Shown piece after piece: positions 31,201 to 31,815 of a stretch of DNA of 64,000 nt (position 1 is its first letter; each line of letters starts with the position of its first letter). This DNA is from Deuterostichococcus epilithicus (lineage: Eukaryota; Chlorophyta; Trebouxiophyceae; Prasiolales; Stichococcaceae): positions 2,282,501 to 2,346,500 of the forward strand of contig JAVTLE010000005.1 of the NCBI GenBank assembly GCA_033439295.1, in the 5' to 3' direction. A program made the position numbers and the translations under genes. The notes below the pieces were generated by a model. That model was not told the DNA's origin, did not search any database, and saw nothing but the letters and a program-made list of their open reading frames with translations.

Positions 31201-31815
31201 TGCACCTGGCCTCCTACCCCGCGCTGGCGGTGCCGCACATGTACGTGCTCGCTGGCGGCTACAAGGCCTTCCAGGTGTGTGTGTGTGTGTGTGTGTGTGT
31301 GTGTGTGTGTGTGTGTGTGTGTGTGTGTGTGTGTGTGTGTGTGTGTGTGTGTGTGTGTGTGTGTGTGTGTGTGTGTGTGTGTGTGTGTGTGTGTGTGTGT
31401 GTGTGTGCGGTGTCACAACCCTTGTCAAAACCCTACAAAAGCCCTCGTCTCCTTTGTGTCTGTTCGGCAAGGCTTTGGGGGTGACGTGTCCGCGAGACGG
31501 CATCCGGAACCGGCCTTGCCCCTCCTGCATGGCTACTGTGATGTGAGGCCATTTCCTTTGCTATAACAGCGCGGCACCCCACAGAAGTGCTGGGAAACAG
31601 GCTATTTACCACCTCAACCTCATCACCCATTGCCGTCGCTGCAGGAGCTGTACCCGCAGCTGTGCACGCCGTCGGGCGGCTACGTGCGCATGGTGGACAA
31701 GCGCTTCGACGCGGAGCTAAAGCAGCAGTACAGTCTCAGCAAGGCCACCTGGTGCCGCAAGGACGGCCGCAAGAAGGCGGCGCAGCCTCGCGCCGCCTGC
31801 GAGGCGGCAGCATGA
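28260..31815 (+). CDS. CDC25: CDC25-type dual-specificity phosphatase
   Basis: CDC25 phosphatases remove inhibitory phosphates from cyclin-dependent kinases and have a rhodanese fold. The C-terminal catalytic domain is clear: [20 protein letters not shown] and GAVNMQ (about 30.69-30.76 kb), then [20 protein letters not shown] with the CX5R signature (Cys codon 31137-31139, Arg 31155-31157), [20 protein letters not shown] (to 31274) and, after an intron, [20 protein letters not shown], ending in a Lys/Ala-rich tail with TGA at 31813-31815. Upstream exons encode a Ser/Pro/Ala-rich regulatory region ([20 protein letters not shown] at 28.69 kb; the long exon at 29.50-29.98 kb). The N-terminal exon is uncertain: [18 protein letters not shown] at 28260 precedes a good GTGGCT donor and is my choice. 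The residue before the catalytic Cys is Tyr, where animal and yeast CDC25 have His. Confidence 0.85.
31275..31407 (+). repeat. Uninterrupted (GT)66 microsatellite at a CDC25 splice donor
   Basis: 133 nt of perfect GT dinucleotide repeat start immediately after the exon ending GGYKAFQ, so the first GT of the repeat is the 5' splice site. The intron ends at the acceptor ctgcag (31639-31644), giving about 370 nt. Open frames through the repeat encode only Cys-Val or His-Thr runs and are not genes. Confidence 0.95.

Follow-up and report, generated by a model that had tools for sequence, protein, structure and literature searches.

Why should the longest GT repeat of an algal genome begin on the very first letters of an intron, and which of its many GTs is used for splicing? 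These questions are raised by a perfect (GT)66.5 microsatellite in the CDC25 gene of the green alga Deuterostichococcus epilithicus. We analyzed the repeat in a stretch of 64,000 nucleotides (C5:2282501-2346500, 60% GC), referred to here as the window, which belongs to a genome of 46.79 Mb in 21 contigs. This microsatellite probably arose through replication slippage that extended an ordinary donor of the AG/GTGTG type, and the spliceosome should pick its first GT nearly always.

The GT tract and the CDC25 junction

The repeat occupies positions 31275-31407 of the plus strand, i.e., 133 bases that match the GT unit at 100% without interruption. Its first GT, as judged from the sequence, the donor score and the U1 duplex, forms the donor site for the last CDC25 intron (31275..31644, plus strand, phase 0; sequence and homology), and the tract directly follows the CAG codon that closes the exon upstream. 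This exon (31059..31274, plus strand; sequence and homology) encodes the active site and ends in LAGGYKAFQ. After the acceptor at 31644 (ctgcag, then gagctg), which was also called by a gene finder, ELYPQLC continues in frame and opens the last coding exon (31645..31815, plus strand), which was read from the sequence and comprises 56 residues, ELYPQLC to EAAA, before a TGA stop at 31813-31815. The tract lengthens the last intron from 237 to 370 bases.

Homology supports the AFQ-ELY junction, across which CDC25B chains of PDB align without a gap in the three alignments inspected. When the joined protein was compared with PDB, 12 of the 13 sequences listed were CDC25 chains (best E 4.8e-30, CDC25B chain 2uzq), and it also matched the Pfam Rhodanese family (E 2.8e-8). 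It has the rhodanese-like domain with a CX5R active site, and by these features the gene is a canonical CDC25 phosphatase, predicted to dephosphorylate cyclin-dependent kinases. An earlier note on this DNA had named the gene CDC25, ended the exon at GGYKAFQ and placed the start of the repeat on the next base; gene identity, boundary and exact abutment (133 perfect GT bases from 31275) are all borne out by the sequence and by homology across the junction.

Within the genome, (GT)15 was counted at 106 overlapping places, 100 of which were listed; their coordinates and the tract start account for the other six. Six GT tracts of at least 30 bases were resolved from the (GT)15 coordinates. The CDC25 tract is the longest, followed by tracts of ~75 bases (C19) and ~65 bases (C11), and the rest do not exceed 50 bases. 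Because it is the longest in a genome with few others of at least 30 bases, chance is excluded. Tracts of at least 8 units number 32 with a G start and 29 with a T start. The window is free of N letters. At two other loci (L009 and L046), N letters adjoin GT tracts, which indicates ambiguous or masked bases, and the tract lengths there are uncertain.

Donor strength of the first and inner GTs

Donors were scored with a gene finder that learned, without any annotation, from the window and 18 other stretches (244 kb). Two earlier versions learned 0 and 16 introns, in our view chiefly owing to wrong scoring of the intergenic state, and the third version converged. It was seeded with a generic AG/GT preference at positions -2 and -1 and with C/T before the acceptor AG, so these positions are not independent evidence, whereas donor positions +3 to +6 were learned from a flat start. 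Five of the 18 training stretches (L009-L013) were chosen for holding GT tracts; the counts of tract starts in the 194 kb sample described below used the window and the 13 others.

The 524 predicted introns (median length 193) gave a donor of C-A-G followed by GTG-C/A-G-C, learned except for the seeded AG/GT, and an acceptor of Y-G-CAG followed by G. At donor position +4 the frequencies are C 0.45, A 0.28 and T 0.12, and G reaches 0.69 at +5. Introns that open with GTGTG account for 35 of the 524, and those with GTGTGT for 6. The 5' start of U1 RNA, read in two copies (L040 and L041), is ATACTTACCTG, the standard 5' end. Matches to U1 small nuclear RNA occur at 10 places in the genome, 8 of them over the family cut-off.

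The first GT of the tract scores 6.91, in the 82nd percentile of the 524 predicted donors, and forms a U1 duplex of -9.6 kcal/mol. The 65 inner GTs score between 0.0 and 1.37, at most in the 3.6th percentile. The highest of these scores belongs to the second unit (31277), which reaches 1.37 (3.6th percentile) and pairs with U1 at -7.3 kcal/mol; no other inner site pairs notably with U1. Deeper units score ~0.0 to 0.56 (1.1st to 1.5th percentile) because they are preceded by TGT and not by CAG. Eight other inner sites pair with U1 at -3.6 to -2.1, and the remaining units share the letters of those at -3.6. The tract thus holds no second donor of comparable strength, the best inner U1 pairing being -7.3 versus -9.6.

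A shift of the donor by one unit would bring a stop 25 residues past the Gln, and a shift by two units a stop 1 residue past it. Three units would add Val-Cys in frame, and the frame is kept only at every third unit. The earlier note had regarded every GT of the tract as a potential shifted donor, which donor strength does not back, as AG precedes the first GT only. It had also expected use of a later GT to add Cys-Val residues or shift the frame; the added residues would be Val-Cys (GTG TGT).

Genome-wide association of GT tracts with AG

If ordinary donors seed GT tracts, such tracts should tend to start directly after AG, increasingly so with length. We counted AG before tracts in a sample for short tracts (194 kb, CDC25 tract left out) and genome-wide, with GA directly after the tract as the mirror control. 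In the sample, AG preceded 130 of 1059 tracts of at least 2 units and 7 of 65 of at least 3 units; genome-wide, it preceded 51 of 245 tracts of at least 5 units and 13 of 32 of at least 8 units. The mirror control gave 104/1843 and 6/128 in the sample and 29/377 and 2/41 genome-wide. For tracts of at least 8 units, one-sided Fisher tests gave p 0.005 versus 5-7 units, p 7e-5 versus the sample and p 2e-4 versus the mirror. The longer a GT tract is, the more often it begins right after AG, and this rising share suggests an influence of donors on the sites at which long repeats persist. The compact genome, with few long tracts, allows donor seeding to be measured directly.

Upstream exons at other tracts were searched against Pfam and PDB (7 proteins), and the only match was a weak one to a zinc finger at L033 (C9, ~1326204). 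This C2H2 match has an E of 0.048, below the Pfam curated cut-off. It covers the profile up to position 16 of 25 and breaks off where the exon ends (1502, SRTHLE) and a (GT)12.5 tract begins. The finger could be completed by AHFAGKRH after the acceptor gcgcag at 1761, which was chosen for fit as the first of four downstream AG sites with a fitting His pattern. To judge from this split motif, L033 likely encodes a C2H2 zinc finger that is divided by an intron, with the tract opening at the donor.

Seeding on the acceptor side was also considered and rejected: the letters that precede the 29 tracts with a T start are evenly spread (C 10, T 10, A 9) and give no sign of it.

Origin of the tract and alternative explanations

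Growth from a donor would proceed as follows. The AG/GTGNG donor consensus of this alga would supply recurring GT seeds, selection on the donor would hold the left edge of the tract pure, and the intron side would tolerate and absorb its growth. If the first GT is used nearly always, the default effect on the CDC25 protein would be nil. Binding of UG-repeat proteins or folding into UG quadruplexes could possibly have a modest effect on splicing efficiency. More generally, GT-rich splice donors are probably natural seeds for GT microsatellites.

Several observations weigh against this explanation. The second unit retains the U1 pairing given above. Among sample tracts of at least 4 units, 1 of 8 followed AG, and among those of at least 5 units none of 3 did, numbers too few to judge. 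No AG stands before the tracts ranked second and third in length (~75 and ~65 bases). After the tracts were shortened, the gene finder called donors at 6 of the 13 AG-started tracts and not at the other 7, as well as at 2 of the 19 non-AG starts, one of these beside N letters; on the unaltered sequence it called 5 of the 13, and for CDC25 (L030) and L038 it placed the donor just past the tract. The uncalled starts may be AGs that are not part of a donor, or donors missed by the gene finder. A coding score above 0 in the 90 bases upstream was found for 6 of 13 AG tracts versus 4 of 16 others, no clear separation, and a score above 5 for 4/13 versus 3/16; this comparison left out three other starts beside N letters (L009 and two in L046). 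For reference, the score exceeded 0 at 21% of 1276 non-donor AG/GT sites of the sample versus 83% of 217 predicted donors. Finally, the proposed origin from a donor seed is deduced from a single genome.

Other explanations assign the tract a different role. U1 might slide along the repeat as on a ladder, yielding related proteins that carry extra Val-Cys pairs or frameshifts. Each inner unit does offer a GT, a shift by three units keeps the frame with an added Val-Cys, and U1 pairing at the second unit is still -7.3, but the inner sites lack AG at -2 and -1 and fall in the 1st to 4th percentile, and units past the second lose ~6 kcal/mol of U1 pairing relative to the first GT. In an excerpt of a tandem-donor study, moreover, a strong donor out-competed its weak neighbor in unconfirmed cases (PMC1779574), and we consider sliding very improbable. 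It is barely conceivable that the whole tract is coding, with a donor GCG/GTGTCA directly after it (31410..31411, plus strand) and a 45-residue insert of (Val-Cys)22-Ala. The gene finder chose this donor on the unaltered sequence, taking the tract as coding, and the 135 bases preserve the frame. Homology contradicts this site: no Val-Cys insert is present in the three CDC25B alignments inspected. The site is also weak (5.9th percentile, U1 -3.9 kcal/mol), and when the tract was cut to three units the gene finder took the first GT, at 31275. Annotators are warned that this repeat can be taken for 45 coding residues. We strongly doubt that the real tract is shorter and was lengthened by a mistake in assembly or polishing. 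The length is that of the assembly, which has N letters beside two other GT places (L009 and L046), but the window has no N and the tract no interruption.

Alternatively, the repeat may regulate splicing: the UG tract would bind UG-repeat proteins or form as many as five UG quadruplexes in tandem, and its length would tune removal of the last intron. CELF- and TDP-43-like proteins bind UG repeats. With 66.5 GT units on the coding strand, the tract lies above the threshold for RNA able to form a UG-repeat (pUG) fold, which is 12 or more UG/GU repeats in the transcribed strand (PMC12276007). Retention of the intron would replace the last 56 CDC25 residues by (Val-Cys)22 and 25 further residues to a stop. 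In a folding model, opening the donor costs 5.3 kcal/mol with the real tract versus 12.5 with three units. However, length-matched random spacers of 60% GC had a mean of 7.8, with 3 of 30 at or below the real value, length-matched natural intron starts had a mean of 8.2, with 5 of 60 at or below it, and random G/T spacers had a mean of 5.4, which the model does not separate from the real tract. The effect in the model is thus mostly that of a structure-poor spacer. ViennaRNA is not known to model UG quadruplexes. A link between TARDBP and GT repeats is reported in an excerpt of PMC13174678 and favors regulation, which we nevertheless find unlikely. A broader proposal is that in this alga 5' splice sites are a main birthplace of GT microsatellites and that CDC25 is the extreme case, in which a folded or protein-bound UG repeat beside U1 would set the rate of last-intron removal and link tract length to mitotic entry; we hold this to be distinctly unlikely.

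Comparison with known systems

Published systems, compared here through excerpts of the cited papers, resemble the algal tract in part. Human genes show pUG tracts enriched near splice sites, with a threshold of at least 12 repeats and a stated maximum of 61 units (PMC12276007). The algal tract shares with them at least 12 GT units at or near a 5' splice site and the possible UG quadruplex, but it abuts the donor directly, has 66.5 units versus 61, and is known here from sequence alone. Enrichment of UG repeats near splice sites is thus already reported for humans in that excerpt, and the donor-abutting algal tract is a further example. In CFTR, the (TG)m repeat of intron 8 is bound by TDP-43 and affects splicing (PMC12171016); like the algal tract it is a TG repeat that lies within an intron at a splice site, but it is located upstream of the 3' splice site, whereas the algal tract begins at the 5' splice site. 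An intronic GTT repeat in Arabidopsis NTM1, in which the longer allele is associated with intron retention (PMC12177298), is an intronic repeat in the plant lineage, but it is a trinucleotide repeat near the acceptor.

Tandem GYNGYN donors (Genome Biology 2006, PMC1779574) also involve competition between neighboring GT donors. The algal GTGTGT differs in lacking the three-base spacing, as its GTs recur at two-base steps and +4 carries none, and in its far weaker inner sites. Strong donors beat weak neighbors in the excerpt of that study, so the same is expected for the first GT of CDC25. Among the records listed in literature searches, no title or abstract start described a GT tract that begins exactly at a donor in algae, which is not proof of absence.

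The CDC25 gene and its neighbor

Around CDC25, the gene finder called donors at 29980, 30335 and 30766. The exon with which the catalytic domain begins lies at 30604..30765 (plus strand; homology and gene finder). The residue before the active-site Cys is Y in the algal protein and H in the human chains. A genome search found only one CDC25 copy, with three exon matches, all at the window locus. According to an excerpt of PMC13237563, Ostreococcus tauri has a reported CDC25, whereas none is reported for Chlamydomonas reinhardtii. The gene described here shares the CX5R active site and CDC25B-like domain with the canonical CDC25 of Ostreococcus, and its presence (window 30604-31815) is an extra data point in a lineage distribution that looks patchy.

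Downstream, tail to tail with CDC25, a gene for the variable alpha chain of ferredoxin-thioredoxin reductase is located on the minus strand (32713-33468, E 2.4e-22), which fits a green alga.
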